Source: Gemmatimonadaceae bacterium
Lineage (GTDB): Bacteria; Gemmatimonadota; Gemmatimonadetes; Gemmatimonadales; Gemmatimonadaceae
Length of the DNA stretch: 20,282 nt
Reading direction: 5' to 3'
NCBI GenBank assembly: GCA_025357975.1
Contig: JANYKY010000520.1
Span: forward strand, 1-20,282
Shown: piece by piece, positions 908 through 18,107 of the stretch
Layout: each line of letters starts with the position of its first letter
How positions within the stretch are numbered: position 1 is the stretch's first letter
Position numbers and translations under genes: made by a program
Notes under the pieces: generated by a model
The model's database searches: none
What the model was told of the DNA's origin: nothing
The model's input: the letters and a program-made list of their open reading frames with translations, nothing else

Positions 908-909
908 CG

Positions 910-2700
910 ATGGAGCAAGACAACAAGGCATTTGCATATGTCGGTGCCTTCGTCGACGAGCTCGTGCGCAGCGGCGTTCGACACGTTTGCGTATCGCCGG
1001 GTTCGAGATCCACTCCGCTCGCTCTGACCATTGCTCGCAACGCGTCAATGCGCATCTGGATGCACCTCGACGAGCGGTCAGGCGCTTTCTTCGCATTGGG
1101 ACTGGCCAAAGCGCTCGACGAACCTGTTGCTCTGCTCTGCACCTCAGGCACGGCCGCCGCGAATTTCTTGCCGGCGGTTGTCGAAGCGCATGCTTCGGGA
1201 GTTCCACTCCTGGTGTTCACTGCGGACCGTCCGCCCGAATTGCGCAACGTCGGCGCCGCGCAGACCATCGACCAGAACCGGCTCTTTGGCGCGCACTCTA
1301 AGTGGTTTGTCGACGTCGCGTTGCCAGAACAAACTCCCGAGCTGCTTCGTTACGCGCGAACGCTTGCCGCACGCGCGACAGCCCTTGCGAAAGCGAGCCC
1401 GGCCGGGCCGGTACATCTCAACTTTCCTTTTCGCGAGCCGCTCATTCCAGTGCGGGCAGCCCCGCCTCGGGATGCCTCCGCCGACGTAATCGAGGCGTGG
1501 CAAGGACGTCCGAACGGTGCCGCTTGGGTGAACGTGGAAGATTCGCTTCCATCGCTTTCGGAGCCGGCCGCTCGGCGCCTCGCAACGATGCTGGCGAAAG
1601 CGGAGAGGCCCTTGATCGTGTGTGGTCCTCAATCCGATGCCTCGCTTGCCGGCCCGTTGTCGGCATTGGCGAAATCGCTCGGAGCACCTCTTCTCGCTGA
1701 TCCGCTGTCTCAGATGCGTTGGGGGCCACACGATCACGAGACCCTGATCGACCGCTACGACTCGGCGTTGCGACATTACCCGACGGCTGACGGTTTTTCG
1801 CCCGACATAATTCTGCGAATCGGAAGTATTCCGACGTCCAAAACGCTGAACGATTACCTGAAGCGCCAATCGGGCGTCCCGCTCGTCTTAATCGATGCTT
1901 CCCGATGGCCCGACCCGTCTCTTCTCGCGAGCGAGATGATTCACGCGCAGCCTCGACTCGCGTGCGAGAGTTTGCTCGCATGCATTCAACCTCAGCGCGA
2001 CGGGCGGCCACAGTCGGCCTGGCTCGCGCGATGGCGCAAAGTGAATTCGACTGCGAATGCTGCGATCCAGGAGCATGTGTCAGCGCTTCACGAAACCTTC
2101 GAGGGGCGGATACTCAGCGACGTCGTATCAAGCATGCCATCACCGTCGACGCTCTTCGTCAGCAGCAGCATGCCGGTAAGGGACGTCGATGCATTCGGGG
2201 CTGGAGACTCACGCTCAATCCGGGTAATGGCGAACCGGGGTGCGAATGGGATCGATGGTGTCGTATCGAGCGCGCTGGGGGCCGTCGCCGCCATTGCTGA
2301 GAGCGATGGAGGGCCGCTTGTTCTCGTAATCGGCGATCTCGCGATGTACCACGACATGAATGGCCTGCTTGCGGCAAAGCTTCACACGCTCGATGCAACG
2401 ATCGTCGTTATCAACAACGATGGTGGGGGAATTTTTTCCTTCCTCCCGCAGTCTGCGGAGCACGAGCATTTCGAGATGCTGTTCGGTACGCCGCACGGGT
2501 TGACCTTCGAGCCGGCTGCCGCTCTTTATGGAGCGGCATACAATCGCGCAAAGAACTCGGCGTCATTGCGCCAGGCGATAGCGACTGGCATTGCTGGAAA
2601 AGGACTGCACATCATCGAGATCGAGAGCAATCGTGCCCGCAATGTCGAGATGCATCGCGAGGTGTGGGATGCTGTCGCCCAGGATCTGAGCAAGCTCTGA
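910..2700 (+). CDS. menD: SEPHCHC synthase MenD (thiamine diphosphate enzyme)
   Basis: Joins isochorismate and 2-oxoglutarate to give 2-succinyl-5-enolpyruvyl-6-hydroxy-3-cyclohexene-1-carboxylate, using thiamine diphosphate and Mg2+. At 596 residues it is slightly longer than the usual ~550-580. N-terminal motifs are classical: SPGSRSTPL (residues 29-37), DERSGAFFALG with Glu55 matching the ThDP-activating glutamate, SGTAAANFLPAVVEA, DRPPELR and GAAQTIDQ. The C-terminal ThDP-binding block starts with GDL at about residue 475 and ends with NNDGGGIFSFLP from about residue 502. The start ATG at 910 lies 2 nt after the menF stop, which suggests translational coupling. Its 3' end overlaps the putative GTG start of menH. 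No defects seen. Confidence 0.98.
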   Translation: MEQDNKAFAYVGAFVDELVRSGVRHVCVSPGSRSTPLALTIARNASMRIWMHLDERSGAFFALGLAKALDEPVALLCTSGTAAANFLPAVVEAHASGVPLLVFTADRPPELRNVGAAQTIDQNRLFGAHSKWFVDVALPEQTPELLRYARTLAARATALAKASPAGPVHLNFPFREPLIPVRAAPPRDASADVIEAWQGRPNGAAWVNVEDSLPSLSEPAARRLATMLAKAERPLIVCGPQSDASLAGPLSALAKSLGAPLLADPLSQMRWGPHDHETLIDRYDSALRHYPTADGFSPDIILRIGSIPTSKTLNDYLKRQSGVPLVLIDASRWPDPSLLASEMIHAQPRLACESLLACIQPQRDGRPQSAWLARWRKVNSTANAAIQEHVSALHETFEGRILSDVVSSMPSPSTLFVSSSMPVRDVDAFGAGDSRSIRVMANRGANGIDGVVSSALGAVAAIAESDGGPLVLVIGDLAMYHDMNGLLAAKLHTLDATIVVINNDGGGIFSFLPQSAEHEHFEMLFGTPHGLTFEPAAALYGAAYNRAKNSASLRQAIATGIAGKGLHIIEIESNRARNVEMHREVWDAVAQDLSKL

Positions 2701-3566
2701 AGCAGGTCATCAAGGGCGAAGGCGGCCCACACCGGGAAATTGCTGCTGCAGACGGTCTCACGCTGCACATCGTGACAAGTGGCGATGGGCCTCCAGTCAT
2801 CATGCTGCACGGCTTTACCGGCTCCGCGGATACGTGGAAACACCTGCGGCAGAAGCTCGACGGGACTTACAGGGTTATCGCGATCGACCAGCCTGGACAT
2901 GGACGCTCCAGCGCCCCAGCCGACCCTCAACGCTACAGGCTCGGACGGTTTGCAACAGACCTCTGCAATGTTCTTGATTCGCTTGAGATCGAGCGGACCG
3001 TTGTGCTCGGATACTCAATGGGTGGCCGAGCGGCGCTGAGATTTGCGCTCGACCATCCAGATAGACTTGCAGGGCTAGTGCTGGAAAGCACATCTCCTGG
3101 AATCCCCGATTCAAGGCAGAGGTCTGAGCGCCGCGCGGCTGATGCGGCGCTCGCGGACGGTATAGAGCGCGACGGGATCGAGAGATTCGTCAAACGATGG
3201 GAGGCACTGACACTGTGGGATAGCCAGCGTGCATTGCCGGACCTGGGAAATCTTTTGCGGCTGCAACGCCTTTCGAATACGCCGCATGGTCTTGCAAACA
3301 GCCTTCGAGGTGCGGGGACAGCAGAGGCCGAATCTGTGCTCGCCGCGGCGGCCGGGATCAAGGCACCGACGCTCCTCATTGCGGGCGGGCTCGATTCGAA
3401 ATACGTAGAGCTCGGACGCCAGCTCGCGAAATCGATCCCTCACTCCCGTCTGGAAATTGTTCCCAACGCCGGACATGCGGTGCATCTCGAGAGGGCGCAT
3501 GGATACGCCCATGCAATTACGACGTTTCTTTCAACTATCCCGTCGGCCGAGGGACGGTGGACATAG
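2664..3566 (+). CDS. menH: SHCHC synthase MenH, alpha/beta hydrolase
   Basis: Eliminates pyruvate from the MenD product to give 2-succinyl-6-hydroxy-2,4-cyclohexadiene-1-carboxylate. It is an alpha/beta-hydrolase fold: LHGFTGSADTW (oxyanion region, residues 48-58), nucleophile elbow GYSMGG with Ser118, and Asp244 (GGLDSKY) and His271 (NAGHAVHLE) completing a triad. The start is uncertain. The longest form begins with GTG at 2664, inside menD (37-nt overlap), without a well-spaced ribosome site; the conserved part begins near residue 30 (DGLTLHIV), and no in-frame ATG lies before the catalytic core. A rare CTG at 2697, touching the menD stop, is an alternative. Specificity as MenH, not a general hydrolase, comes from position between menD and menB. 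Confidence 0.88.
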   Translation: MGCCRPGSEQALKQVIKGEGGPHREIAAADGLTLHIVTSGDGPPVIMLHGFTGSADTWKHLRQKLDGTYRVIAIDQPGHGRSSAPADPQRYRLGRFATDLCNVLDSLEIERTVVLGYSMGGRAALRFALDHPDRLAGLVLESTSPGIPDSRQRSERRAADAALADGIERDGIERFVKRWEALTLWDSQRALPDLGNLLRLQRLSNTPHGLANSLRGAGTAEAESVLAAAAGIKAPTLLIAGGLDSKYVELGRQLAKSIPHSRLEIVPNAGHAVHLERAHGYAHAITTFLSTIPSAEGRWT

Positions 3567-3643
3567 CCCATCGAACCTTCTGCCCCTCATTCTTAGATTG
3601 AAAGGTGCCGGGAATTCCGACCCGCCCAATCAACGCCACACGA

Positions 3644-3650
3644 AGAGGAG
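3644..3650 (+). promoter_or_regulatory. Ribosome binding site deciding the menB start
   Basis: AGAGGAG ends 5 nt before the ATG at 3656. It favours this ATG over the in-frame upstream GTG at 3605, which would add 17 unconserved residues. It is the clearest Shine-Dalgarno sequence in the men cluster. Confidence 0.8.
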
Positions 3651-3655
3651 ATCGC

Positions 3656-4480
3656 ATGACCGCGCAGTGGAAGTCGATCAACAGCTATTCAGACATCCGG
3701 TACGAGCGAATTGAAGGCGAGCCCATCGCAAAAATCACGATCAATCGCCCAGAAGTGCGAAATGCATTTCGTCCGGAAACGGTGTCCGAGCTAATTGACG
3801 CATTTGATCACGCGCGCGACGACATGACGACCGGTGTGATTCTTCTTACCGGCGAAGGCGATCAAGCCTTCTGCTCAGGTGGCGACCAGCGCGTGAGAGG
3901 TGACGGCGGTTATGTCGGCGGAGATAAAGTGCCGCGCCTCAATATCCTGGACGTGCAAAAACAAATTCGCTATTTGCCCAAGCCCGTGATTGCCGTCGTC
4001 GCTGGATATGCAATCGGCGGTGGACACGTACTTCACCTTGTGTGCGACCTCACAATCGCGGCGGACAATGCAAAATTCGGCCAGACAGGACCAAAGGTCG
4101 GCAGCTTCGACGCGGGCTTCGGCGTGAGCCACCTCGCTCGTACGGTCGGCCACAAGAAAGCGCGAGAGATCTGGTATCTGTGTCGCCAGTACAGTGCGCA
4201 GGACGCGTTGAACATGGGTCTCGTGAACACGGTTGTACCTCTCGCACAACTCGAGGCCGAGTCGCTGCAGTGGGCGCGTGAAATCGCGGAGAAGAGTCCG
4301 ATGGCGCTTCGTTTTCTGAAGGCGGCATTCAACGCTGACACGGATGGCGCGGCCGGCCTGCAGCAAATTGCCGGCGATGCGACACTTCTTTACTACCTCA
4401 CCGAAGAAGCAAAGGAAGGAAAGAACGCGTTTCTCGAGGGACGCAAACCCGATTTCGGGAAATTCCCCCGATTCCCGTGA
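3656..4480 (+). CDS. menB: 1,4-dihydroxy-2-naphthoyl-CoA synthase MenB
   Basis: Cyclises O-succinylbenzoyl-CoA to 1,4-dihydroxy-2-naphthoyl-CoA (crotonase fold, Dieckmann-type ring closure). The protein from the ATG at 3656 is 274 residues, normal for MenB. Visible motifs: [12 protein letters not shown] (30-40), the oxyanion-hole segment [12 protein letters not shown] (71-82), [14 protein letters not shown] (118-131), and the MenB-specific [13 protein letters not shown] loop (144-156) followed by KAREIWYLC. The short C-terminal [12 protein letters not shown] tail is also typical of MenB and separates it from general enoyl-CoA hydratases. An 89-nt gap separates it from menH, the largest in the operon, so an internal promoter is possible, though I see no convincing one. 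Its stop overlaps the menA start by 4 nt. Confidence 0.97.
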
Positions 4481-5391
4481 CTGCCAGCACAGCAGCTCAG
4501 ATTGGATCAGCGCGAGCGTGGCTACTCGCGTCACGGCCCGCGACTTTGCCGGCAGCGGCGGTTCCGGTCTTTGTCGGTGCCAGTGCGGCAATCAACGAGG
4601 GCGCTACTCTGCGACCACTCGTGTTCGCTGTCACGCTCATGTGCGCGCTGCTGATTCAGATCGGAACGAACTTCGCGAACGACTACTCTGATTTTCATCG
4701 CGGCGCCGATCACGAAGGCAGGCTCGGCCCAGTTCGGGTAACGCAGAGCGGACTCATCTCCCAGAAGAGTGTCCGAAGCGGGATCGTTGCCGCGTTTGGA
4801 GCAGCTGCTCTTCTCGGCTTGTGGCTGGCGTGGACTGGCGGCTGGCCGATCATTGTCATCGGGGCGCTGTCGATAGTCGCAGGTCTCGCTTACACAGGCG
4901 GCCCATTTCCTTTTGGCTATTACGGCTTAGGGGATGTGTTCGTGTTCATCTTTTTTGGCTTGATAGCAGTCACTGGAACTGCGTTTCTTCAAATCGGATC
5001 GTGGAGTCAACTTCCGTTGATCCTTTCCGTGCCGGTCGGGCTGCTTGTTACGAATATCCTCGTGGTGAACAATCTCAGAGATCTGCCGACTGACCTCGCC
5101 GCGAACAAGCGCACCCTCGCCGTTCGCCTCGGCGACCACTCCACACGAATTCAGTACGTCCTGTTTGTAGTGGTCTCATATATGGTGCCGCTCGTGCTTG
5201 CAGCTACCGATGTTTCACGCCGCTGGCTGATGCTCACCTGGCTGACTGCGCCGCTGGCATTCGGTCTCAGCAAAACTGTCATGGGCGGACTTTCAGGGCG
5301 TGATTTGAATCCCATCCTCAAGCGCACCGGGATGCTGCTGCTGCTGTTCGGCATACTGCTGGCGGCCGGAGCGGTAATCGGGCGTTCGTGA
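4477..5391 (+). CDS. menA: 1,4-dihydroxy-2-naphthoate polyprenyltransferase MenA
   Basis: Membrane UbiA-family prenyltransferase that attaches the isoprenoid side chain to 1,4-dihydroxy-2-naphthoate, giving demethylmenaquinone. The first Asp-rich motif is [14 protein letters not shown] (about residues 66-79), followed by the MenA-type [14 protein letters not shown]. The second is in [22 protein letters not shown]. Several hydrophobic segments cover most of the 304 residues, beginning with [13 protein letters not shown]. The GTG start at 4477 overlaps the menB stop (GTGA), and its own stop overlaps the GTG of menE in the same way, so menB-menA-menE should be translationally coupled. The thioesterase step that frees DHNA from CoA is not encoded here. 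Confidence 0.96.
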
Positions 5392-6932
5392 CCCAAAAGG
5401 CCGTGTTCCCGGATTGGATCGCGCATCGTGGGCGCGGAATGCCTGGCCACATTGCCCTCGTCGTTGGACGCAGCGAGTGGACATTCGCCGAGCTCGATGA
5501 TGAAATCACGAGTGCTGCAAAGAAACTGGCGACGCTCGGTGTGCAGGCTGGTGACCGGGTTGCGGTGCTACTGCACAACGGGTGTGAAATGGCGGTGCTG
5601 CCGCACGCTGTGCTTCGTTGTGGCGCCACACTTGTCCCGCTCAATGTGCGACTGAGTGAGCACGAGCTCGCGTGGCAGCTCGGTGACTCGAAACCGCGGC
5701 TCCTGTTTGTCGATGAGCGCACCTACGATCAAGGAGTAAATGCTGCGCGTGAATATTCGGGGATCCGCGTTGTAAGCATCGACCGGCGCGATACCGAACA
5801 TGATTCGGAGAACACGTTTGATCGAGTCGCCGAAGCCGACGTAGAGCTTCGGCTTGTGCACGACGGCGATGCTGTGCTTGCAATTATCTACACCTCTGGC
5901 ACGACCGGTCGGCCAAAGGGTGCAATGCTCACTGTATCGAATTTTTGGTGGAGCGCGATTGGATCAGCGCTCAATCTCGGCACACGCAGTGAGGACAAAT
6001 GGCTTGCGTGCATGCCGCTCTTTCATGTCGGCGGATTGTCGATCCTCATTCGCGCGGCTATTTATGGAATCACTGCGGTTGTGCAGGACGGATTCGATGA
6101 AACGGCTGTGAATGCCGCTATCGATAAGGGCGTGACTATTGTTTCCGTCGTCGCCGTGATGCTCGAGCGCATGCTCGTGCAGCGTGGCGGCGATTTATAT
6201 CCCGCAACACTTCGGTGCGTGCTGCTTGGCGGAGGTCCCGCACCGGTTTCATTACTCGAGCGGTCCAGCTCCATGTCCGCTCCGGTAATCCAGACTTACG
6301 GCCTTACCGAAACCTGCTCGCAAGTAGCGACGCTTTCTCCACAGGACGCGGCTAGCAGACATGGCGCGGCAGGCAGGGCGCTTTATCCCAACGAAGTCCG
6401 GATCGCACTACAACCTGGCGGTACGCCGGGTGATCGGGCGGGAGAGATTGTTGTACGTGGCCCGGTGGTGATGGCTGGTTATTTCGGCCAACCAGATGCT
6501 ACGGCTCGCGCAATCGAAGATGGGTGGCTTCGCACCGGCGACATCGGGCTTGTCGACGGTCAGGGATATCTCTACGTGCTCGACCGCCGGGAGGATCTGA
6601 TCGTGACTGGCGGAGAAAATGTCTATCCTGCCGAGGTGGAGGATGCCCTTTTTTCACATCCGTCGATTGCTGAAGCCGGGGTTATAGGTATCATCGATGA
6701 AAAATGGGGACAGCGTGTAGTTGCGATTGCCAGGCTTGCGGACGGTGCGGACGAAGCGGCCCACGATGCCCCCGCACTCGCGTCATGGTGTCGCGCACGG
6801 CTCGCCGGGTACAAGATCCCAGCTGAATTTCGGTTTGTGACAGACCCGTTGCCGCGAACGGCATCGGGCAAACTTCGGCGGGGCGAACTTCGCGATGTGG
6901 CGAACGCGCAGGGCGGTGATAGAAAAGCTTAA
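5388..6932 (+). CDS. menE: O-succinylbenzoate-CoA ligase MenE
   Basis: Activates 2-succinylbenzoate with ATP and CoA through an acyl-adenylate. The ANL superfamily motifs are complete: P-loop YTSGTTGRPKG from about residue 167, QTYGLTETCSQ (A5 region), GWLRTGDIG and DRREDLIVTGGENVYPAEVE (hinge and A8), and PRTASGKLRRGEL with the catalytic lysine at about residue 495. Its 514 residues fit the family. GTG start at 5388 overlaps the menA stop by 4 nt. Sequence alone could also fit another acyl-CoA ligase; operon position makes MenE the best call. It is the last gene of the men operon and is followed by a hairpin before convergent genes. Confidence 0.93.
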   Translation: MTQKAVFPDWIAHRGRGMPGHIALVVGRSEWTFAELDDEITSAAKKLATLGVQAGDRVAVLLHNGCEMAVLPHAVLRCGATLVPLNVRLSEHELAWQLGDSKPRLLFVDERTYDQGVNAAREYSGIRVVSIDRRDTEHDSENTFDRVAEADVELRLVHDGDAVLAIIYTSGTTGRPKGAMLTVSNFWWSAIGSALNLGTRSEDKWLACMPLFHVGGLSILIRAAIYGITAVVQDGFDETAVNAAIDKGVTIVSVVAVMLERMLVQRGGDLYPATLRCVLLGGGPAPVSLLERSSSMSAPVIQTYGLTETCSQVATLSPQDAASRHGAAGRALYPNEVRIALQPGGTPGDRAGEIVVRGPVVMAGYFGQPDATARAIEDGWLRTGDIGLVDGQGYLYVLDRREDLIVTGGENVYPAEVEDALFSHPSIAEAGVIGIIDEKWGQRVVAIARLADGADEAAHDAPALASWCRARLAGYKIPAEFRFVTDPLPRTASGKLRRGELRDVANAQGGDRKA

Positions 6933-7049: not shown

Positions 7050-7574
7050 CTACTTCTTCGCTGTGGGAGGCAGCATCCCGTTCAGGCGCATGTAAATCGC
7101 GGCCTGGCTGTAGTGATCAGCCCAGTCTCCAATAGTTACAGCCATTACGCCGGCTCGTGACTTCTTTGATCCGCCGAAGAAGTTGAGCTGCTCATTCAGG
7201 TTGGAATCGTCGAGCGTCGCGAGCGACGAGTGGCAGAAATCAAACGTCTCTTTCAGCCTGGCGACCAGGGCAGCCTTCGGCGCAGTTGCAGCGATCGCCG
7301 TACGCGTAGGCGCCTTCGTTCCGCCGATCTCGCCGCAGAAATAGTCGTTGCCCTCGCTCAGATGGGTGACAATCTGCCCAAAGCTCATCTGCGCCGGCGT
7401 CGGCTTGTAGGAGTACTTCGCCGCCGGCACGGTCTCGGCCGCGGCAATCAGGTTTTTTGCTTCGCTCGCTTCGAAATCGCGGAATGCTGCAGCGACTGGA
7501 GCCTGCGCGCGAAGAAGGGACGCGTTAACCGCGACCGCAGCCGCGACTATCACTACACATGAACGAATGCTCAT
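7050..7574 (-). CDS. Secreted DinB-superfamily protein
   Basis: A 174-residue protein with an N-terminal signal peptide: a hydrophobic run over residues 7-16 and a likely cleavage after AQA (residue 25). The mature part reads as a DinB/YfiT-type four-helix bundle: QIVTHLSEGNDYFC with His71, and the C-terminal signature DHYSQAAIYMRLNGMLPP with His154. In the usual family pattern the second metal site is HxxxH; here it is Asp150-x3-His154, so one ligand may be replaced by Asp. Some DinB-family members are metal-dependent thiol transferases, but most exported ones have no known function. Start: ATG at 7574 with GAGGA 4 nt upstream. An open frame continues upstream to 7991 but covers the opposite-strand regulator and is rejected. 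Function unknown. Confidence 0.83.
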   Translation of the reverse strand: MSIRSCVVIVAAAVAVNASLLRAQAPVAAAFRDFEASEAKNLIAAAETVPAAKYSYKPTPAQMSFGQIVTHLSEGNDYFCGEIGGTKAPTRTAIAATAPKAALVARLKETFDFCHSSLATLDDSNLNEQLNFFGGSKKSRAGVMAVTIGDWADHYSQAAIYMRLNGMLPPTAKK

Positions 7575-7599
7575 AAAATCCTCTGTAGGGGAGATCTCA

Positions 7600-7628
7600 A
7601 TTCTGTCGCCGGAACCGATATCTGTCCA
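7600..7628 (-). promoter_or_regulatory. Candidate sigma-70-like promoter of the dinB-like gene
   Basis: Reading the minus strand, TGGACA (7628-7623, 5/6 to TTGACA) is followed after 17 nt by CAGAAT (7605-7600, 4/6 to TATAAT). A start near 7593 would leave a leader of about 20 nt containing the GAGGA ribosome site. Found by eye. The rest of the divergent region 7575-7704 must also hold the kdpE promoter, which I cannot place. Confidence 0.4.
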
Positions 7629-7704
7629 GCGAAACCTCGCAGTCGGGGCAAAATGTCGAGCGGCGACTCTGTTTACCAATGACAGCGATAGCTTTATCGG
7701 AACA

Positions 7705-8412
7705 ATGCTCCCTGAATCCGGTGCAGCCGTAGTCGGCTCCATTCTGGTGATCGACGACGAGCCACAGATTCGGCGCGTCGTCCGAAACGCATTGGTTGAA
7801 GTCGCTGAATCCATTCTTGAAGCATCGACAGCGCGCGCGGGGCTCGATCTCGCCGCATCCGCGTCTCCCGATATCATCATTCTCGACCTCACCCTTCCCG
7901 ATGCCGAAGGTGTCGATGTGTGCCGGGATCTGCGATCCTTCACGCGCTCGCCCATTCTCGTGCTTTCCGCACGCCACTCGGAGCGCGACAAAGTCGGATT
8001 GCTCGATTCCGGAGCGGACGACTATCTCACCAAACCATTCGGTACCCTCGAGCTGCAAGCGAGAGTGCGTGCGCTAAGCCGGCGCGCCTTTCCGTCCGTG
8101 AGCGAGACAGACAGCGAAACGATCGGCGACCTGGAGATCAGCGTATCCCGCCGGTCGGTGCACCGTGCCGGCTCTGCTGTCCATCTCACTCCCACCGAAT
8201 GGGGTCTTCTTCGCGCATTGCTCACCAATCGCGGACGAACGATGACGCACCGGCAACTATTCCGATCGGTGTGGGGCAACGCCGAGGGCGATGCACAACA
8301 ATATCTTCGCGTCTACGTCGGCCAGCTCAGGCGTAAGCTCGAACAGGACCCCGTGCGGCCAAAGCTAATCACGACGGAACCCGCGGTGGGATATCGCTTC
8401 GAGCCCGAATGA
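7705..8412 (+). CDS. kdpE: KdpE-type response regulator (OmpR family)
   Basis: Two-domain response regulator of 235 residues from the ATG at 7705. The receiver domain has the acidic pocket Asp17/Asp18, phospho-acceptor Asp61 in LDLTLPD, Ser88 (LSARH) and Lys110 (TKPFG). The C-terminal winged helix reads LTPTEWGLL...LFRSVWG...QYLRVYVGQLRRKLEQDP...GYRFEP. The stretches LSARHSERDKVGLLDSGADDY and YLRVYVGQLRRKLEQDPVRP are close to KdpE as I know it, closer than to PhoB or OmpR. The next gene is a KdpD-type kinase, overlapping by 4 nt (ATGA). The open frame extends upstream to 7567 without conserved sequence, so the ATG next to the receiver domain is preferred. Likely target: the following potassium transporter. 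Confidence 0.9.
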   Translation: MLPESGAAVVGSILVIDDEPQIRRVVRNALVEVAESILEASTARAGLDLAASASPDIIILDLTLPDAEGVDVCRDLRSFTRSPILVLSARHSERDKVGLLDSGADDYLTKPFGTLELQARVRALSRRAFPSVSETDSETIGDLEISVSRRSVHRAGSAVHLTPTEWGLLRALLTNRGRTMTHRQLFRSVWGNAEGDAQQYLRVYVGQLRRKLEQDPVRPKLITTEPAVGYRFEPE

Positions 8413-9854
8413 TGAACTCCTGGAAGGGCGCATCGGCCCGGCAGTGGGCGTTGTGGTTCGTTTTGCTCGCCGTCGCTACAACGGGACTTTTTCTTCTTCG
8501 CGGACGACTCGACAAGGCGCATTTTGCGCTGGTGTTTCTGCTCGTTGTGCTTGGCGGAAGCGCCGCCGGAGGACGCCTTCTTGGCATCACGTTGGCGGGC
8601 GTTGCGTTTCTTGTCTTCGACATTGGATTTGTTCCGCCCTACTACACAATGCAGGTGACCGATCCGTTCGACTGGATAATTCTTTTCGTTTTCCTTGCCA
8701 CCGGCGTGATCGCCGCCGAGCTGATGGAGAGGCAGCGAAGGGAAGCTGAAGTCGCGCGAGAGAGAACATCCGAAATCGACCGCATTGCAACTCTTGGCGC
8801 CGAGACGCTCAACGCTCCCCGGCCTGAGGATGCGCTGAAGGCAATTGCCGATGTGATCAGGCAATCGATGCACACCGATGAATGCGACATCTCGTTGACC
8901 GATTCCCGCGTGACGAACGTGCTCTCGCCAGATGACTCACGAGACGTTCCGCTGTTGCCTACGCGTTTCATGCGGATCCCTCTACGCATTCGCGACGCGA
9001 CCGTCGGCACGCTCACGCTGAGATCGAAGCGGCCGTTCCTCCTGTCGCGCGACCAGGAACGCGTCCTCAGCGCACTCAGCTACTACGCCGCCCTCGGAGT
9101 CGAGCGAGTCCGTCTGGCGTCAGCCGAGAGCGAAGCCGAATCGCTGCGGCGCGCCGACAGGTTGAAGGATGCACTTCTCGCGTCGGTGTCACACGACCTT
9201 CGAACTCCGCTAACCACGATCAAGGGGATTGCAAACGAGATCGCGCGCGGCGGTGATTCGGAGCGCGCGTATGTAATAGAAGAGGAGGCCGATCGGTTGA
9301 CTGCGCTCGTGGATGACTTGCTCGACCTGTCGCAGCTTGCAGCCGGCGAGATGGACGTCAATTCCGAGGTCAACACGGCGGACGACGTGATCGGCGCAGC
9401 GCTCCAGCGAGTCGAATCTTCCTATCCGCATCGCTCGATCGAGACCGAGCTGAAAGGGCCGTGGACCGAGCTCGTTGGACGCTTCGATTTCGTGCACACG
9501 ATGAGAATTCTCACCAATCTGCTGGACAATGCCTCGAAGTACGCTCCTCACGGAACTCCGGTGCGCATGACGGTCTGGCGCGCAAACAATGAATTGAATT
9601 TTTCCGTCGACAACGGTGGAAATCCGGTTCCGGAAGACGAAAGGGAGCGAATTTTCGAGCCGTTCTTCCGCGGCTCGTTACGGCGTGGCGAGGCACGTGG
9701 CACAGGCCTTGGGCTATCCATCGCGCGACGACTCGCCCAGTTGCAGGGCGGCCGACTCATCTACGCGCCGAATTCAGAGTCGGCAAGCCGATTCGTGTTG
9801 ACACTCCCGGCAGCAGACGTACCGGCGATGGAGATCGTAGCTCGATCCTTGTGA
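8409..9854 (+). CDS. kdpD: Shortened KdpD-type sensor histidine kinase
   Basis: Inner-membrane histidine kinase of 481 residues. Residues 12-105 form four close membrane segments including FDIGFVPPYYTMQVTDPFDW, characteristic of the KdpD transmembrane domain (DUF4118). A GAF-like region follows (about 125-240), then a HisKA domain with His262 in ASVSHDLRTPLTTIKG, and a HATPase domain with the N box NLLDNASKY (370-378), DNGGNP (401-406) and GTGLGLSIARRL (431-442). The classical ~890-residue KdpD has a large cytoplasmic N-terminal KdpD/universal-stress part with a Walker ATP site; that part is absent here. The gene overlaps kdpE by 4 nt, so the pair is co-expressed. The signal sensed is likely potassium or ionic status, by inference. 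Confidence 0.87.
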   Translation: MMNSWKGASARQWALWFVLLAVATTGLFLLRGRLDKAHFALVFLLVVLGGSAAGGRLLGITLAGVAFLVFDIGFVPPYYTMQVTDPFDWIILFVFLATGVIAAELMERQRREAEVARERTSEIDRIATLGAETLNAPRPEDALKAIADVIRQSMHTDECDISLTDSRVTNVLSPDDSRDVPLLPTRFMRIPLRIRDATVGTLTLRSKRPFLLSRDQERVLSALSYYAALGVERVRLASAESEAESLRRADRLKDALLASVSHDLRTPLTTIKGIANEIARGGDSERAYVIEEEADRLTALVDDLLDLSQLAAGEMDVNSEVNTADDVIGAALQRVESSYPHRSIETELKGPWTELVGRFDFVHTMRILTNLLDNASKYAPHGTPVRMTVWRANNELNFSVDNGGNPVPEDERERIFEPFFRGSLRRGEARGTGLGLSIARRLAQLQGGRLIYAPNSESASRFVLTLPAADVPAMEIVARSL

Positions 9855-9896
9855 AATCCTTGTGCCCAAGGGGCATCGCCTTGTGACTTCCTTACG
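9847..9896 (+). promoter_or_regulatory. Phased CCTTGTG direct repeats, candidate KdpE operator
   Basis: The 7-mer CCTTGTG occurs at 9847, 9858 and 9879, with a degenerate copy CCTTACG at 9890. Start-to-start spacings are 11, 21 and 11 bp, so all copies face the same side of the helix; the first two share the longer TCCTTGTG. Two 7-bp direct repeats with a 4-bp spacer is the layout bound by OmpR/PhoB-type regulators. The array begins in the last codons of kdpD and lies 33 nt before the nearest kimA start. A TGCCC-AAG-GGGCA dyad (9863-9875) lies inside it. Binding by the adjacent KdpE is inference. Confidence 0.5.
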
Positions 9897-9928
9897 GGAG
9901 AGGACTTAGCGTTCAGGCTCGACAGCCG

Positions 9929-11944
9929 ATGCCCCTTCGAAACCCGATTCGGTGGCAAACGGAAACCCGGATACCGTCGATGCCGTCAGCTTACACCCAT
10001 TTCAAACACGTCGTTTTCGGACGCCCGCTGGCCAGCGAGCGGCTCGAACACGAGCGCCTCAACAAGAAAACTGCGCTGGCAGTCCTGTCTTCCGATGCGA
10101 TCTCATCGGTTGCTTACGCCACCGATCAGATTCTCTTCGTTCTTGGCGGCGCCATCGGCATGACAGCCGTTGCCTACGTGCTGCCAATCTCGGCCGTGAT
10201 CGTCGGGCTGCTCGTACTCGTTGGATTGTCGTACAGGCAGACAATTTTCGCGTACCCCAATGGCGGCGGCTCCTACACTGTCGCGAAGGAAAACCTCGGC
10301 GATATGCCCGGCCTGGTGGCAGCCGCTGCTCTGCTTACCGACTACATCCTCACCGTCGCGGTGTCGATTTCAGGCGGCGTCGCCGCAATCACGTCGGCGT
10401 ATCCGGCATTGGTGCCTCACACTGTGGTGATCTGCTCGCTGTCGATCTTTCTTCTCGCGACGGTCAATCTTCGAGGCGTTCGAGAATCGGGCGCAGCGTT
10501 CAGCCTGCCCACGTACGCCTTCATCGTCATGATGTTGACGCTCATCGGATTCGGCGCATTCAGGTACTGGACTGGGCATGAATTGGCACCGTTGTCGGGT
10601 GCGCTTAAAGTCGATCCCGTTTCAGCGCAATCCGGCGGCAGATTTTCTCCCATCACTGGATTCGCGCTCGCGTACCTGCTGCTTCGCGGTTTCGCCGAAG
10701 GCTGCGCCGCGATGACGGGAACTGAAGCTATCTCGAATGGAGTGATGGCGTTCAAGGCTCCCGCCCAGAAAAATGCGGCGGCAACGCTTGGCTGGATGGT
10801 AGCGATTCTGGCTGCGTTCTTTCTTGGTGTTTCGTTTCTCGCGCACCACTATCACGTGATGCCCACGACCAGCGAGACCGTGCTTTCGATTCTCGGCCAT
10901 CATATTTTTGGCGGCGGCCCGCTTTATTACGCTCTCCAGTACACGACGTTCGCTGTGCTGGTGCTCGCTGCAAATACCGCGTTCGCTGACTTTCCGCGCC
11001 TTGCAGGAATTCTGGCAAATGACAAGTACATGCCGCGCCAGCTCGCCGCACGCGGAGACCGCCTTGCATTCTCGAACGGCATCATTATGCTCGCCCTCGT
11101 CGCGTGGCTTCTGGTCTGGCTCTTCAAGGGCAATACAAATGCTCTCGTGCCGCTGTATGCTATCGGCGTATTCGTATGCTTCACGTTGTCACAGGCCGGC
11201 ATGGTCGTACACTGGCGCAACACGCGCGAGCCAGGCTGGATATGGAAAGCATGGCTGAATGGAATCGGCGCTGTCGCGACAGCTCTCGTCTCACTCATCC
11301 AGATCGTCACGAAGTTCACCAGCGGCGGCTGGATCATCGCGCTCATTATTCCAGCGATCATTTTCCTGCTTCGCGCAATTCACAAGCACTATGTCGAATT
11401 CGCTGAAGACACGCGGTTTCTCGGTCAGAGTCCGATCAATCCACTTCATCACACGGTGATTGTGCCCGTGAATGGAATCAGCAAGGCAACCTCTGGCGCA
11501 CTCGTCTATGCGACCACGATATCTGACGAAGTGGTTGCGGTTTATATAGAAGTCGACAAGCGCGACACGCTGCGCATCGAGCAGGAGTGGGAAGCGTGGG
11601 ACATCGGCGTTCCCCTCGTGGTCGTTCCGTCTCCGTATCGATCGATCCTCAAGCCGCTCGTCGAATACGTGGAAAACCTTCGAATGGTCACGCCTGGTGA
11701 GCTCGTCACCATCGTGGTTCCAGAAATCGTGCCGAAGCGGTGGTGGGAACATCTTCTTCACAACAAGACGGCTCTCTACATCCGCACAGCGTTTCTGTTC
11801 AAACCCAACGTCGTCGTCACCGCGATTCCCTATCTGGTCGGGCACGCCTACCGCATTCGCGACTGGATGGACCACGACGAAGATCTGGACGAGGGTCCCG
11901 ACGAAGAGAACTCCGTTGCGAGCGAGAGTGCAACTGCTGCCTAG
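9929..11944 (+). CDS. kimA: KimA-type potassium importer (APC superfamily)
   Basis: Membrane potassium/proton symporter of the KUP-related KimA (YdaO) group. Many blocks match Bacillus KimA as I know it: LSSDAISSVAYATDQIL, SYRQTIFAYPNGGGSY, LLTDYILTVAVSISGG, GTEAISN, LVLAANTAFADFPRLA and GDRLAFSNGII. The three acidic residues important in KimA appear kept: Asp56, Asp138 and Glu266, counted from the ATG at 9929. About 12 membrane segments reach residue ~485. A cytoplasmic C-terminal universal-stress-like domain follows (VIVPVNGISKATSGALVYA onward), then an acidic tail. The start could also be ATG 9980, which lines up better with the KimA N-terminus (YTHFKHVVFGRPL); neither has a clear ribosome site. 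Generic databases may label it an amino-acid permease. No c-di-AMP riboswitch fits in the 74-nt leader gap. Confidence 0.88.
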   Translation: MPLRNPIRWQTETRIPSMPSAYTHFKHVVFGRPLASERLEHERLNKKTALAVLSSDAISSVAYATDQILFVLGGAIGMTAVAYVLPISAVIVGLLVLVGLSYRQTIFAYPNGGGSYTVAKENLGDMPGLVAAAALLTDYILTVAVSISGGVAAITSAYPALVPHTVVICSLSIFLLATVNLRGVRESGAAFSLPTYAFIVMMLTLIGFGAFRYWTGHELAPLSGALKVDPVSAQSGGRFSPITGFALAYLLLRGFAEGCAAMTGTEAISNGVMAFKAPAQKNAAATLGWMVAILAAFFLGVSFLAHHYHVMPTTSETVLSILGHHIFGGGPLYYALQYTTFAVLVLAANTAFADFPRLAGILANDKYMPRQLAARGDRLAFSNGIIMLALVAWLLVWLFKGNTNALVPLYAIGVFVCFTLSQAGMVVHWRNTREPGWIWKAWLNGIGAVATALVSLIQIVTKFTSGGWIIALIIPAIIFLLRAIHKHYVEFAEDTRFLGQSPINPLHHTVIVPVNGISKATSGALVYATTISDEVVAVYIEVDKRDTLRIEQEWEAWDIGVPLVVVPSPYRSILKPLVEYVENLRMVTPGELVTIVVPEIVPKRWWEHLLHNKTALYIRTAFLFKPNVVVTAIPYLVGHAYRIRDWMDHDEDLDEGPDEENSVASESATAA

Positions 11945-12070: not shown

Positions 12071-13462
12071 ATGTCCACTGCGACTTCAGGCAACGCGCAG
12101 CTACTCTATCTGCTGCACCAGGATCCAACCGAGCTGATGGAAGCACTTTCGCAGCTCCGTGCGGAAGACATCGCCGAGGGCCTGCGAGATCTTCCGCCTG
12201 AGGCGGCGGCGAAGGTGATGGCTGCGATGCCGTTCGATCGTGCCGTGGAGGTATTCGACGAGCCGGAGATTGCCAGCAGGCGCTGCAGCATGCTCCTCAC
12301 CATGAAGGATGAGGATGCCGGCGAGTTGATCGACGCGATGTCTTCAGATCAGCAGGCAGATCTTTTCCGTGAAATCCCGGAGCGAGAGAGAAGCAGGATG
12401 TTGAAGTTGCTTCCCGATCCCACCCGTGAGTCGCTGAAGCATCTGCTGAAGTACTCGCCTGATACCGCCGGCGGAATCATGACCACGGAATTCACGAGCA
12501 TCCCCTCGAACTGGAAGGTCGAGCGGGCTCTCGAATTTGTGAGTGAAGTGGCTCGCGCAAAAGAAACTATTTACGTCATCTACGTGATCGATCCGGCCAC
12601 CGACACTCTCGTCAGGGTTTTGCCGCTTCGTGAGTTGCTGGCTTCTCCGCGCACTGCGGCTGTTATGGAAATCGGGCCCCGCCGCCAGCCGCTGACTGTT
12701 CACGCGGACACAGACAGAGAAGACGTCGCGAAGGTCATCTCGAAATACAACCTGCTTGCGGTTCCCGTGGTGGACGACGCGATGCACGTGCTCGGGATCG
12801 TAACCGTCGACGATATCATCGATACGCTGGTCAAGGAGCAGACCGAAGACGCGCAGAAGTTCGGCGGTATGGAGGCGCTCGACGCTCCCTACATGGAGAT
12901 CGGCTTCGTCTCGATGATAAAGAAGCGCGCGGGTTGGCTCTGCGCTCTTTTTCTGAGTGAAATGCTGACCGCTACCGCGATGCAGCGCTTTCAGGGGGAA
13001 ATCGAAAAAGCAGCTGTGCTCGCGATGTTCATTCCGCTTGTGATGAGCTCCGGCGGGAACTCGGGATCGCAGGCGACGTCATTGGTGATTCGCGCGCTTG
13101 CGTTGCGGGAGCTCAAGCTGAAGGACTGGTGGCGAATCGCAATCCGCGAGCTTCCCACTGGCCTGACGCTTGGGTTGATACTGGGCATCATCGGGTTCAC
13201 GAGAATAGTGCTGTGGCAGCATCTTCACATCTTCAGCTATGGGCCGCACTATCTTCTCGTCGCGCTGACAGTGGGGCTCGCGTTGATCGGCATCGTCGCG
13301 TTTGGATCGCTCGCCGGGTCTATGCTGCCATTTCTCTTGAAGCGGGTGGGATTTGACCCGGCCAGCGCGTCAGCTCCGTTTGTCGCAACGCTTGTGGACG
13401 TCAGTGGTCTCGTGATCTACTTCTCGGTCGCAGTTCTGATTCTCAAAGGGACACTTCTGTAG
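12071..13462 (+). CDS. mgtE: Magnesium channel MgtE
   Basis: Mg2+ channel/transporter of 463 residues with the normal MgtE layout: a helical, acidic N domain (about 20-125), a CBS pair (about 130-255, with YSPDTAGGIMTTEF at its start and LLAVPVVDDAMHVLGIVTVDDIID in the second CBS), a plug/linker, and a membrane domain from about residue 285. The membrane part shows SGGNSGSQATSLVIRA and FVATLVDVSGLVIYF, where Asp443 corresponds to the pore Mg2+-binding aspartate of Thermus MgtE. Gating by cytosolic Mg2+ through the N and CBS domains is known for the family. The 126-nt gap before it (11945-12070) has no terminator or promoter I can support. Its TAG stop directly abuts the next start. Confidence 0.96.
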   Translation: MSTATSGNAQLLYLLHQDPTELMEALSQLRAEDIAEGLRDLPPEAAAKVMAAMPFDRAVEVFDEPEIASRRCSMLLTMKDEDAGELIDAMSSDQQADLFREIPERERSRMLKLLPDPTRESLKHLLKYSPDTAGGIMTTEFTSIPSNWKVERALEFVSEVARAKETIYVIYVIDPATDTLVRVLPLRELLASPRTAAVMEIGPRRQPLTVHADTDREDVAKVISKYNLLAVPVVDDAMHVLGIVTVDDIIDTLVKEQTEDAQKFGGMEALDAPYMEIGFVSMIKKRAGWLCALFLSEMLTATAMQRFQGEIEKAAVLAMFIPLVMSSGGNSGSQATSLVIRALALRELKLKDWWRIAIRELPTGLTLGLILGIIGFTRIVLWQHLHIFSYGPHYLLVALTVGLALIGIVAFGSLAGSMLPFLLKRVGFDPASASAPFVATLVDVSGLVIYFSVAVLILKGTLL

Positions 13463-14562: not shown

Positions 14563-15732
14563 TCAGTTTCCGAGCGATAGCCTGGTACGCGACATAGCCG
14601 AAAAACTGTCGCAGGCGATTATCCAGTTCTCTTCCGCAGGGATGACCATTGTAGAGATTCTTGCGCCCGAGCGGGATATGATTCGCTCGCGAGCTCCGTC
14701 TCGGTTCAGGGTGGCGTTAAGGTCGACCCCAAGAAAGCCCAGCCCGCTCGCAATGTCCGCGCGAATGCGGGGCGAATGCTCGCCAATGCCACCGGCGAAA
14801 ACGAGGGCGTCGAGCCCGTCCATCGAGGCCGCCATTGCCCCGATTCCTTTCCTTACATGATGCACGAACACATCGATTGCCAGCCGGGCACGCTCATTCC
14901 CGCCGTCGGCCGATTCAAGAATCTCACGCATGTCCCCTGTCGTTCCAGAGAGTCCGGCCAACCCTGAATTGTGGTTGAGCATCTGATCGAGCGTGTCAAC
15001 GGTTTCTCCGCCGTGACGCAACAAATGGATCAAAATTCCAGGATCGACAGCTCCGGAGCGCCGCGCCATCGGAATACCATCCATGGGAGTAAAACCCATA
15101 GTCGTATCGACAGAGCGACCATTCCGAACAGCGGCGAGAGAGCAGCCGCTTCCAAGGTGACACGTGACAACGCGAAAAGAGCGATCGCGCGCGCTGTTCA
15201 GGCGAGCCGCGCGGTGAGATGTATAGCGGTGGCTCAAGCCGTGAAATCCGAACCGTCGAATTCCCTGCTCAACCCACGCCTGCGGACCCGGATAGGTGTA
15301 TGCGGCTGGGGCCAAAGACTTATGGAACTCCGTGTCGAACATTGCGATCTGAGGCATGTTCGCGTCGAGTGTTTTCGAGACGGACTCGATTGCGGCGAGA
15401 GCAGCAGCATTGTGCGCGGGCGCATACTCTGACACGCGAGCGAGTTGTTCCCGAATTTCGCTCGTGATTCTTGTTGGCTCGCGAAGCTCAGCTCCTCCGA
15501 AAACAACCCGATGGCCCACGACATCGATCGAAGCTGGACCATCGATGACGCGGTCGGGGCCGGTCCACATGTCCGTTATCAGTGCCTCGACATCACCACC
15601 CGATTTCTGCTCTTTTTCCCAGACCACGCCAGCCGGCGCGTCCCCTTCTGCGCCCGCGCTCTCAAGCTTGAACAGAGAGGCCTTTAAGCTGCTCGATCCT
15701 GCGTTCAAGACGAGAATGTTCAGGAAGGCCAC
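14563..15732 (-). CDS. ackA: Acetate kinase AckA
   Basis: Transfers phosphate between acetyl phosphate and ADP, giving acetate and ATP in the cytoplasm. The 389 residues match the family length. Key residues by eye against the archaeal/bacterial family: Asn10 in [10 protein letters not shown], Arg75 in GHRVVFGG, Asp133 in FDTEFH, His164 in GFHGLSHRY, Arg225 in [10 protein letters not shown], and Glu in the C-terminal PAEENWIIA. The nucleotide-site glycine segments [11 protein letters not shown] and [11 protein letters not shown] are present. GTG start at 15732 lies 13 nt inside the xfp end, so the two genes are one coupled operon. No phosphotransacetylase gene is seen nearby; acetyl phosphate supply from Xfp is the natural reading. 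Confidence 0.96.
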
Positions 15733-18107
15733 CGCCAGTCGCGCACATCGGGCATGTCATCACCGTTCGCGCGGATATATTCCGCATGCTCGACCAATCT
15801 GCCTCGGCACCAAGCGCCCAGATCTTTTGCCCCAGTGTGATCGGCCAGCCGTGGAACACGGTTGAGCACGTCCAACACAAGATGAAAACGATCGAGGTCG
15901 TTGATCACGGTCATGTCGAACGGGGTTGTCGTCGTTCCTTCTTCCTTGTAACCACGGACATGCAGGTTCGCGTGATTCGTGCGCCGGTAAGCCAGCCGGT
16001 GTATCAACCATGGATACCCGTGGAACGCGAACACGATGGGCTTGTCTTTCGTGAACAAGCCATCGAACGCATCATCGCTGAGTCCATGAGGATGTTCGTG
16101 CTGCGGCTGCAATGTCATCAGGTCCACGACGTTGATAAAACGAACGCGAAGGTCCGGAAGTCGCTCGCGAAGAATGGACGTTGCAGCCAGTGCCTCGAGC
16201 GTCGGAACGTCTCCCGCACAGGCGATGACAACCTCTGGATCGGTGCCCTCTGCCGTGCTCGCCCACTTCCACAATCCCAGGCCAGCCTCGCAGTGTGCCG
16301 CCGCGGAGTGGATGTCGAGCCACTGAGGCGATGGCTGTTTACCGGCGATGATGACATTCACGTAATTCCTGCTTCGCAGGCAATGATCAGCAACGGAGAG
16401 CAGTGTGTTCGTATCCGGTGGGAGGTAAACGCGCACTACGTCTGCTTTCTTGTTGACTACATGATCGATGAACCCCGGATCCTGGTGACTGTTGCCGTTG
16501 TGATCCTGCCGCCACACGTGCGATGTCAGCAGATAATTGAGTGACGCAATGGGTGCCCGCCATGGAATGTGCCGAGTGGTGTTCAGCCATTTGGCGTGCT
16601 GGTTGAACATCGAGTCCACGATGTGGACGAATGCTTCGTAACAGGAGAAGAGGCCGTGCCTGCCCGTGAGCAGATAACCCTCGAGCCAGCCCTGGCAGAG
16701 GTGCTCGCTGAGCACTTCCATCACTCGCCCGTCCGGCGTGACGTGATCATCCGTCGGAAGAATTGTCGCTGAAGACATTCGGCCGGTCACGTCGAATAGC
16801 GCGTCGAGGCGGTTCGAGCTCGTTTCGTCAGGCCCCATCACGCGAAAATTCGAGGCACCCTCGTTGAGCCGCATCACTTCGCGCAGCATAACACCAAGAA
16901 CGCGAGTCGCTTCCGCGTCGACTGCGCCGGGTGTCTTCACGCTCACGCCGTAGTCGCGAAAATCCGGCATGATGAGATCCTGGAGAAGCAGTCCGCCGTT
17001 CGCGTGTGGGTTGGCGCCCATTCTCCTCGCGCCGCGAGGTGCGAGGTTCGCGAGCTCCGGAATGAGAGCGCCGTTGTCGTCGAAAAGCTCCTCGGGTCGA
17101 TAGCTGTGCATCCATTCTTCGAGCAGCGCGAGATGCTCGGGGTTGTCAGCCAATCCCGACAGCGGAACCTGATGTGACCGGAATGAGCCTTCAGTTTGCT
17201 TGCCATCTACGGAGACGGGGCCTGTCCAGCCTTTCGGCGACCTGAGAACGATCATCGGCCATCGCTGGCGCTCGATCGAGTTTCCGTTTCTCGCGTTGAA
17301 CTGAATGTCGGCAATTGCATCTGCCACAATGTCGAGCGTGGTCGCCATCAGCTCGTGCATCTCGGCCGGATCATCGCCGGAAACGTAGTGGGGCTCGTAG
17401 CCGTAACCGTGCATCAACGAGGTGAGCTCACTCTCGGGTATCCGCGCGAGCACAGTAGGCCCCGCGATCTTGTATCCGTTAAGGTGAAGCACAGGGAGGA
17501 CGGCTCCGTCGCGGGCCGCATTGATGAATTTGTTCGAATGCCAGCTCGCGGCGAGCGCGCCCGTCTCGGCTTCGCCATCGCCGATCACGCAGCACACGAA
17601 CAGATCAGGGTTGTCGAACGCCGCGCCGAATGCGTGCAGTAGCGAGTATCCGAGCTCGCCGCCCTCGTGAATCGAGCCGGGCGTTTCAGGCGCGACGTGA
17701 CTTGGAATACCGCCGGGATAAGAAAATTGCGTGAACAGTCGCCTGAGTCCGTCGACGTCGCGCGAAATTTTCGGATATACCTCGCTATACGTTCCTTCGA
17801 GGTATGTATTTGCGACGATACCGGGGCCGCCGTGACCCGGGCCAGTAATGAACATGGCATTGAGGTCGCGGTCGACGATCAGCCTGTTCATGTGCGCGTA
17901 CACGAAGTTGAGCCCTGGCGTTGTTCCCCAGTGACCGAGCAGCCGGGGCTTCACGTGTTCGATTCTGAGCGGCTCCCGCATCAGCGGGTTGTCGCGCAGA
18001 TAGATCTGTCCGACGGAGAGATAATTCGCGGCTCGCCAGTATGCGTCGAGAAGCTTGAACGATTCGGAGACAGCAGGAAAAGTGGGCGCAACGGCTTGCA
18101 TGGTCAT
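15720..18107 (-). CDS. xfp: Xylulose-5-phosphate/fructose-6-phosphate phosphoketolase
   Basis: Thiamine-diphosphate enzyme that cleaves xylulose-5-P (and often fructose-6-P) with phosphate to acetyl phosphate plus glyceraldehyde-3-P or erythrose-4-P. The 795 residues match the family (~790-830). Motifs: [75 protein letters not shown], the ThDP motif [44 protein letters not shown] and [21 protein letters not shown]. Substrate preference between X5P and F6P cannot be told. First gene of xfp-ackA. Start ATG at 18107 (a second ATG follows two codons later) has no Shine-Dalgarno sequence but a promoter immediately upstream. Confidence 0.97.

Follow-up and report, generated by a model that had tools for sequence, protein, structure and literature searches.

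A KdpDE-type two-component pair and a doubled KdpE-like box suggest KdpE control of a KimA potassium symporter gene in Gemmatimonadaceae

KdpDE is the two-component system known as the switch of the KdpFABC potassium pump, and KimA is known as a potassium importer controlled by cyclic di-AMP (c-di-AMP). In a contig of 20,282 nucleotides from a Gemmatimonadaceae bacterium (JANYKY010000520.1, assembly GCA_025357975.1), genes for a KdpE-like response regulator, a short KdpD-type histidine kinase and a KimA-type symporter stand in line, and a doubled KdpE-like box precedes kimA. The regulator and the kinase very probably form a KdpDE-type system that targets kimA directly via this doubled box; binding, activation, the potassium signal and transport are what we infer from the sequences. 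The window analysed is this whole contig, part of an assembly of 3.13 Mb in 527 contigs with an estimated completeness of 90.88%. Numbers preceded by L and G denote loci and genomes, respectively. The features of the system are:

7705..8412, + strand: kdpE-like response regulator gene of the OmpR/PhoB family, 235 amino acids (aa) from the ATG at 7705; Pfam PF00072 and PF00486, best PDB match KdpE 4kny
8409..9854, + strand: short KdpD-type histidine kinase gene, 481 aa; DUF4118, HisKA and HATPase
9847..9864, + strand: KdpE-like box 1, CCTTGTG-N4-CCTTGTG, a direct repeat of period 11 that overlaps the stop codon of the kinase gene
9879..9896, + strand: KdpE-like box 2, CCTTGTG-N4-CCTTACG, 32 bp downstream of box 1
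9929..11944, + strand: kimA-type K+/H+ symporter gene, likely start at ATG 9980; AA_permease_2, PDB 6s3k

The identities and order of the three genes, as read from the sequence in an earlier note on this contig, are borne out by the open reading frames (ORFs) and by Pfam, PDB and NCBIfam matches. The regulator ORF spans 7567-8412, with the in-frame ATG at 7705 as its likely start, and its stop is overlapped by the start of the kinase ORF at 8409. It encodes a receiver (Response_reg) and a winged-helix output domain (Trans_reg_C). KdpE is the best match in both NCBIfam (2e-69) and PDB (4kny, 3e-62). The residues R193, R200 and T215, named as DNA-binding residues of KdpE (PMC3264566), are kept in the alignment to 4kny, with numbering counted by hand. 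We call the regulator "KdpE-like" because it scores below the NCBIfam KdpE equivalog cut-off (233 vs 325 bits), as do nine other regulators near kimA, namely that of L179 and eight from loci of other phyla or unnamed organisms.

The kinase carries DUF4118 at residues 13-119, followed by HisKA and HATPase_c, and has no Pfam match to PF02702 or Usp. The description of it as a KdpD without its large N-terminal part thus holds. It has the composition of the C-terminal half of KdpD (the four-helix DUF4118 part, HisKA and HATPase) and not that of the full-length protein; the better of its two stretches matching the KdpD model NF007793 covers positions 597-890 of 895. It is also the sole DUF4118 match in its genome. 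Such a short kinase is not unusual in itself, as split KdpD proteins have already been published (PMC11018627, PMC5716572). The N-terminal KdpD domain acts as a serine kinase on the pump protein KdpB, which it inactivates (PMC11018627), and a KdpD derivative without the N-terminal region retained the response to K+ limitation (PMC2714519). In Deinococcus, a split kinase half and its regulator lie beside a kdp operon induced by K+ limitation (PMC5716572).

The symporter matched a single PDB sequence, KimA 6s3k (2.9e-147). Its homology begins at the in-frame ATG 9980 of ORF 9929-11944, and residues 22-635 align to 2-603 of 6s3k, which is the full length including the cytosolic domain. The Pfam family is AA_permease_2 of the APC superfamily. 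Eight residues assigned to ion binding or proton coupling in the KimA structure (D36, Y43, D117, T121, S125, T230, E233 and Y377; PMC6994465) are kept in this alignment, some positions being checked by script and the remainder counted by eye. The product is predicted to be a KimA-type K+ symporter, active in transport.

The two boxes place four half-sites before kimA at offsets 0, 11, 32 and 43, and nowhere else in the 3.13 Mb genome is CYTTRYGNNNTCYTTRYG matched perfectly. Against a matrix built from boxes upstream of kdpFABC (see below), box 1 scores 15.7 bits and box 2 14.8 bits. The element of four half-sites scores 14.5 of 20, a value attained by 2 of 500 shuffles. In the proposed mechanism, low external K+ would lead the membrane kinase to phosphorylate the regulator, which would dimerise on the four half-sites and activate kimA transcription, so that a K+/H+ symporter would be made instead of the KdpFABC pump.

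This operator recurs within the phylum. Of 395 genomes surveyed, 45 have a KimA match (E <= 1e-60) and 162 a DUF4118 match. We compared 41 stretches, the window and 40 fetched around KimA genes; the 40 comprise 38 of the 52 survey KimA places outside the window (65% identity or more, one at 52%) and two others. The set excludes 14 KimA places that are fragments or have 40-52% identity, one of which lies within L116. Two loci in which the start of kimA is missing (L144, L145) were dropped before upstream regions were counted. Many kimA genes are preceded by the direct repeat CTTTAYG-N4-CTTTAYG with an 11-bp period, and the E. coli KdpE site, TTTATA-N5-TTTACA, likewise has a period of 11 (PMC3264566). 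The E. coli half-site TTTAY alone, repeated at period 11, occurs in 14/39 kimA upstreams vs 2/393 controls (p 2e-14), the controls being other upstreams of the same loci, including those of kdp genes. At periods of 8-10 and 12-14 it occurs in only 0 to 2 of the 39. A matrix from 23 kdpFABC-upstream boxes finds sites of at least 13 bits in 19/39 kimA upstreams vs 6/393 others. This second test is not fully independent: the half-site score, derived by eye from sites at kimA, also served to choose the training boxes, which were picked by score and 32/33-bp spacing from 12 of 15 kdp loci. The p-values overstate independence throughout, the sequences being related by descent.

Outside checks come from the scan with the E. 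coli half-site alone and from two published KdpE sites. The kdp-box matrix scores the E. coli site at 14.6 bits (a rate of 3.7e-5 per position) and, on the other strand, a 22-bp Mycobacterium smegmatis sequence at 18.3 bits (2.1e-5 per position). The latter binds KdpE in an electrophoretic mobility shift assay, with kdpFABC as the target, and its authors reported no noticeable similarity to other KdpE motifs (PMC5401905). We considered this dissimilarity as counter-evidence and rejected it, since the other strand holds a direct repeat of the same type. At the level of sequence, the comparison shows the reported E. coli and M. smegmatis sites to be one motif read on opposite strands.

A box lies before kdpF or kdpA in 12/15 kdp loci and is doubled at a 32- or 33-bp offset in 11 of these; the carriers include the same-genus genomes G006, G011 and G016, as well as relatives from the family. 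The genomes of the three kdp loci without it (L152, L155, L160) encode KdpD in full-length frames (879-911 aa), although L158 and L162 carry the box in genomes that also have full-length KdpD. L149 and L163 stand outside the 15-locus set, as their alignments start inside KdpA; in L149 no box reaches 11.5 bits. Presence of the box follows linkage: 17 of 24 kimA genes linked to KdpDE-like or kdp genes carry it vs 2 of 15 unlinked ones (p 8e-4). In L140 and L119, kimA and kdp of one locus both carry the element.

The neighbourhood itself is conserved, in varying order. KdpDE-like and/or kdp genes are found in 25 of the 41 phylum stretches; 18 of these show no kdpA, and the remaining seven have a kdp cluster as well. 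The pair may precede or follow kimA or be divergent from or convergent with it, and in some stretches kimA follows kdpABC. The other 16 have neither KdpDE-like nor kdp genes; several are short contigs, and one, L122, has a KdpD_N-type gene. The coupling of a KdpDE-type pair to KimA, proposed in the earlier note, is supported by this conserved neighbourhood and by the conserved operator. As side observations, an ORF of unknown family (weak DUF6611 match) lies between KdpD_N and kimA in the kdp clusters of L112 (10983-11924, -) and L129 (12790-14046, +), and in L129 the kinase gene and the kdp boxes are separated by a Kup-type potassium transporter gene of opposite strand (L129:3873-5858, -).

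We built a tree from the regulator and kinase-core alignments of 47 loci, joined end to end. The short pairs of the phylum form a single clade there, and pairs linked to kimA, to kdp or to both are intermixed in it; several inner branches of the clade are weakly supported. The window kinase falls in the same clade as kinases at kdpFABC. Nearest to the window is L179, with the order regulator-kinase-kimA and a doubled box (13.7 and 11.3 bits), followed by L109 and L177 (kimA-regulator-kinase, L109 with kdpABC behind). The L179 contig is labelled as an Acidobacteria metagenome-assembled genome and its KimA is 85% identical to that of the window; it is possibly mis-binned or transferred.

The earlier note proposed that KimA is coupled to KdpDE instead of KdpFABC. 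This fits the genome itself, where KdpA is matched neither in the window nor elsewhere. Among relatives, members of the same regulator clade sit at kimA, at kdpFABC or at both, so the system resembles a common regulon that has lost kdp and not a private re-wiring. In kdp loci the doubled box follows the kinase gene closely, just as it does ahead of kimA in the window. The simplest history would therefore have KdpE acting on kimA before kdpFABC and the KdpD/Usp brake were lost, with kimA staying behind as its target. In this lineage kimA stands after the kinase gene, a position held by kdpFABC in relatives. The same placement could be read differently, with the boxes and the pair as a relic of a deleted kdpFABC operon and kimA as a gene that landed behind the kinase, where the element would have no present function. 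The boxes close behind the kinase gene at kdp loci (L140, L150, L156, L157, L159, L164) and the lack of a kdpFABC match in the genome agree with a relic. We nevertheless consider it unlikely, as the box stays with kimA in arrangements beyond any single deletion. Box-bearing kimA genes are divergent from the pair (L114, L140) or first (L109, L111), have their own box behind a kdp cluster (L112, L119), or bear one in stretches that show no regulator gene (L110, L135). The 19 box-bearing kimA genes come from eight genera, with KimA 68-86% identical to that of the window.

Searches of 61 genomes, including that of the window, place this system in its potassium inventory. The window genome yields a single KimA match, and Kup is matched once, over part of its length. 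It has no match to KdpA (present in 18/61 genomes), PF02702 (19/61), a diadenylate cyclase domain (25/61), the c-di-AMP riboswitch RF00379 (2/61) or TrkH (4/61). PF02702 tracks KdpA and not kimA: 16 of the 18 KdpA genomes carry it and three others do, an association that fits the published role of the domain as a serine kinase inactivating KdpB (PMC11018627). The absence of PF02702 from the assembly supports the proposal that the kinase works without the KdpD/Usp part. This part, which inactivates KdpB at high K+, would be dispensable in this lineage because no pump is present.

The same inventory bears on whether kimA is instead mainly under c-di-AMP control, as in Bacillus, with the pair regulating something else. 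Some relatives have the means: a diadenylate cyclase domain is found in 8 of the 13 searched genomes with KimA of at least 51% identity, and a c-di-AMP riboswitch precedes kimA in the public loci L192 and L205, both of which lack the four-half-site element. We regard such control of the window kimA as very improbable. No cyclase domain was found in its genome or in any of the 18 further congeneric genomes searched (0/19; completeness of these 18, 54 to 98%), RF00379 was absent from the genome, and the window had no Rfam match at the gathering score, in agreement with the earlier statement that no riboswitch precedes kimA. The box is also present in the cyclase-bearing genomes G026, G030 and G031, so KdpE-type and c-di-AMP control may coexist in these three. 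Separately, G037 has a c-di-AMP riboswitch (174625-174766) directly before a KimA-like permease of 31% identity (G037:C48:172710-176256), with a Kup gene just upstream of the riboswitch, and the genome has a diadenylate cyclase. Other distant KimA-like permeases (30-33% identity) lie near DUF4118 kinases with KdpE-like boxes close by in L165, L167 and L168 (G011, G058 and G005), L168 having three overlapping boxes at 11-bp steps. In L166 (G039), a DUF4118 match is divergent from a KimA-like permease, with no box between them.

Downstream of kimA, after a 126-bp gap, lies mgtE (12071-13462), as the earlier note stated. This adjacency would be accounted for by a cation stress operon of kimA and mgtE under a pair that responds to osmolarity, Mg2+ or pH, and a scan of the gap found terminator-like patterns on the other strand only, which is a weak indication. 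We think this scarcely probable: MgtE is near kimA in only 2 of the 41 loci, the window included, and K+ is the signal indicated by a membrane part of KdpD type and an operator of KdpE type. MgtE was therefore rejected as a part of the system. Elsewhere in the window, a menaquinone cluster occupies 2-6932 on the + strand (an isochorismate synthase gene cut by the contig start, menD, menH, menB, menA and menE), and a phosphoketolase gene adjoins an acetate kinase gene at 14563-18107 (-).

Several points weigh against direct control of kimA by the pair. The regulator and the kinase are both under the NCBIfam cut-offs for KdpE and KdpD. The window half-sites (CCTTGTG) diverge from TTTAY, the E. 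coli half-site used in the outside check, and with one mismatch allowed the genome holds 6 matches to the pattern vs 9 to a reversed control. Within the phylum, 7 of the 24 linked kimA genes have no box on the same strand within 250 bp: the box is on the other strand in L113 and L117, further upstream before intervening genes in L116, L126, L127 and L129, and absent in L121. The match in L118 may be a weaker reading of an opposite-strand box. Absences from the assembly, at 91% completeness, are provisional. By the title of work by Behrens and Duerre from 2000, KdpE of Clostridium acetobutylicum reportedly controls only the kdp operon. Because this title pulls the opposite way, we kept our confidence unchanged despite the fit of the M. 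smegmatis site. Truncated KdpD derivatives in E. coli failed to repress at higher K+ (PMC2714519).

Beyond the phylum, we examined public KimA loci, the best 80 of 541 candidates, of which 15 are labelled Gemmatimonadetes, Gemmatimonadaceae or Gemmatimonas and 64 (excluding L179) other phyla or unnamed. KdpDE-like and/or kdp genes are near kimA in 11 of these 64. Seven have a KdpE-like regulator and a kinase (L197, L203, L230, L234, L235, L248, L256); the DUF4118 part of L230 was seen via a weak tblastn match alone, and L234 and L235 have full-length KdpD. Another kinase near kimA, in L252, was rejected as KdpD-type and not counted, being a MASE1/PAS kinase. A single open frame in L248 was considered as a fusion of response regulator and KimA and rejected, as Pfam finds just response regulator domains there. 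Four loci have kdpABC near kimA (L227, L228, L231, L251). In two of them, L227 (Acididesulfobacillus acetoxydans) and L251 (Clostridium ragsdalei P11), the element with its 32-bp offset stands at both kimA and kdp and is attained by 0 or 1 of 500 shuffles; the kimA genes span L227:7989-9881 and L251:7965-9830. Their kimA upstreams are the two best of the 63 loci in the element test (0/200 shuffles each), which left out L218. The riboswitch search, covering 29 of the 80 loci, found none in L227 or L251. L228 and L231 are not among the best loci for the four-half-site element. Such an element before kimA was rejected for the seven kinase-regulator loci: 321, 116 and 272 of 500 shuffles score as well in L197, L234 and L235, respectively, and 24/200 do in L248, while L203, L230 and L256 fall outside the best 14 of the 63. 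In several of these kinase-regulator loci, kimA may simply be co-transcribed. L195 and L219 (3 and 4 of 200 shuffles) have no kdp neighbours and are near chance among 63 loci.

On balance, we lean towards kimA being an ancient second KdpE target in Gemmatimonadota and Firmicutes, with the 0/11/32/43 element shared by these two, and probably also in Chloroflexota and Actinobacteria. KdpE control would then be an alternative to the c-di-AMP riboswitch, and the lineage of the window would have dropped the pump and the KdpD/Usp brake. The conserved KdpE-type operator at kimA joins KdpDE and KimA, and a textbook circuit appears to have a second target. The role of a KdpD-type kinase without a pump becomes a testable question, and the system offers a possible reason why some genomes keep the kinase half of KdpD without the serine-kinase brake. 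C. ragsdalei P11 and A. acetoxydans are named strains with matching kimA and kdp elements. Among the open-access papers listed by searches that combine KimA with KdpE, KdpDE or two-component systems, no title or abstract opening concerns KdpE control of kimA, nor is it reported in the extracts of PMC9945522, PMC11302148, PMC11018627, PMC10117811 and PMC6488665. A review of Streptomyces describes two KimA-like symporters and an uncharacterised KdpDE (PMC10117811).

One of the closest known systems is KdpDE-kdpFABC of E. coli. As there, the window has a KdpE homologue with the DNA-binding residues, a kinase with the order DUF4118, HisKA and HATPase, and a putative operator in which TTTAYA-like half-sites are directly repeated every 11 bp (PMC3264566). 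Unlike in E. coli, the putative target is a symporter gene, the kinase has no KdpD/Usp part, and the element is doubled at a 32-bp offset. The KdpE-bound 22-bp site of M. smegmatis (PMC5401905) corresponds on its opposite strand to a single box of the window kind, but its target is kdpFABC. In the split KdpD systems, one chain has the KdpD/Usp part and another the TM/GAF/DHpCA part (PMC11018627; Deinococcus, PMC5716572); the window shares with them a separate short kinase half and a response regulator, but the KdpD/Usp half and the pump were not found in its genome, and the neighbour is kimA. KimA of Bacillus subtilis, which is under c-di-AMP (PMC11302148, PMC6488665), has the same transporter family and ion-site residues; in the window genome neither a c-di-AMP riboswitch nor a diadenylate cyclase was found, and a KdpE-like operator stands before kimA instead. 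The kdpFABC operon of Bacillus thuringiensis, under a c-di-AMP riboswitch (PMC6488665), is the mirror image, with the pump joined to the riboswitch there and KimA apparently joined to KdpDE here. Common to both cases would be an exchange of transporter and regulator types between two control schemes.

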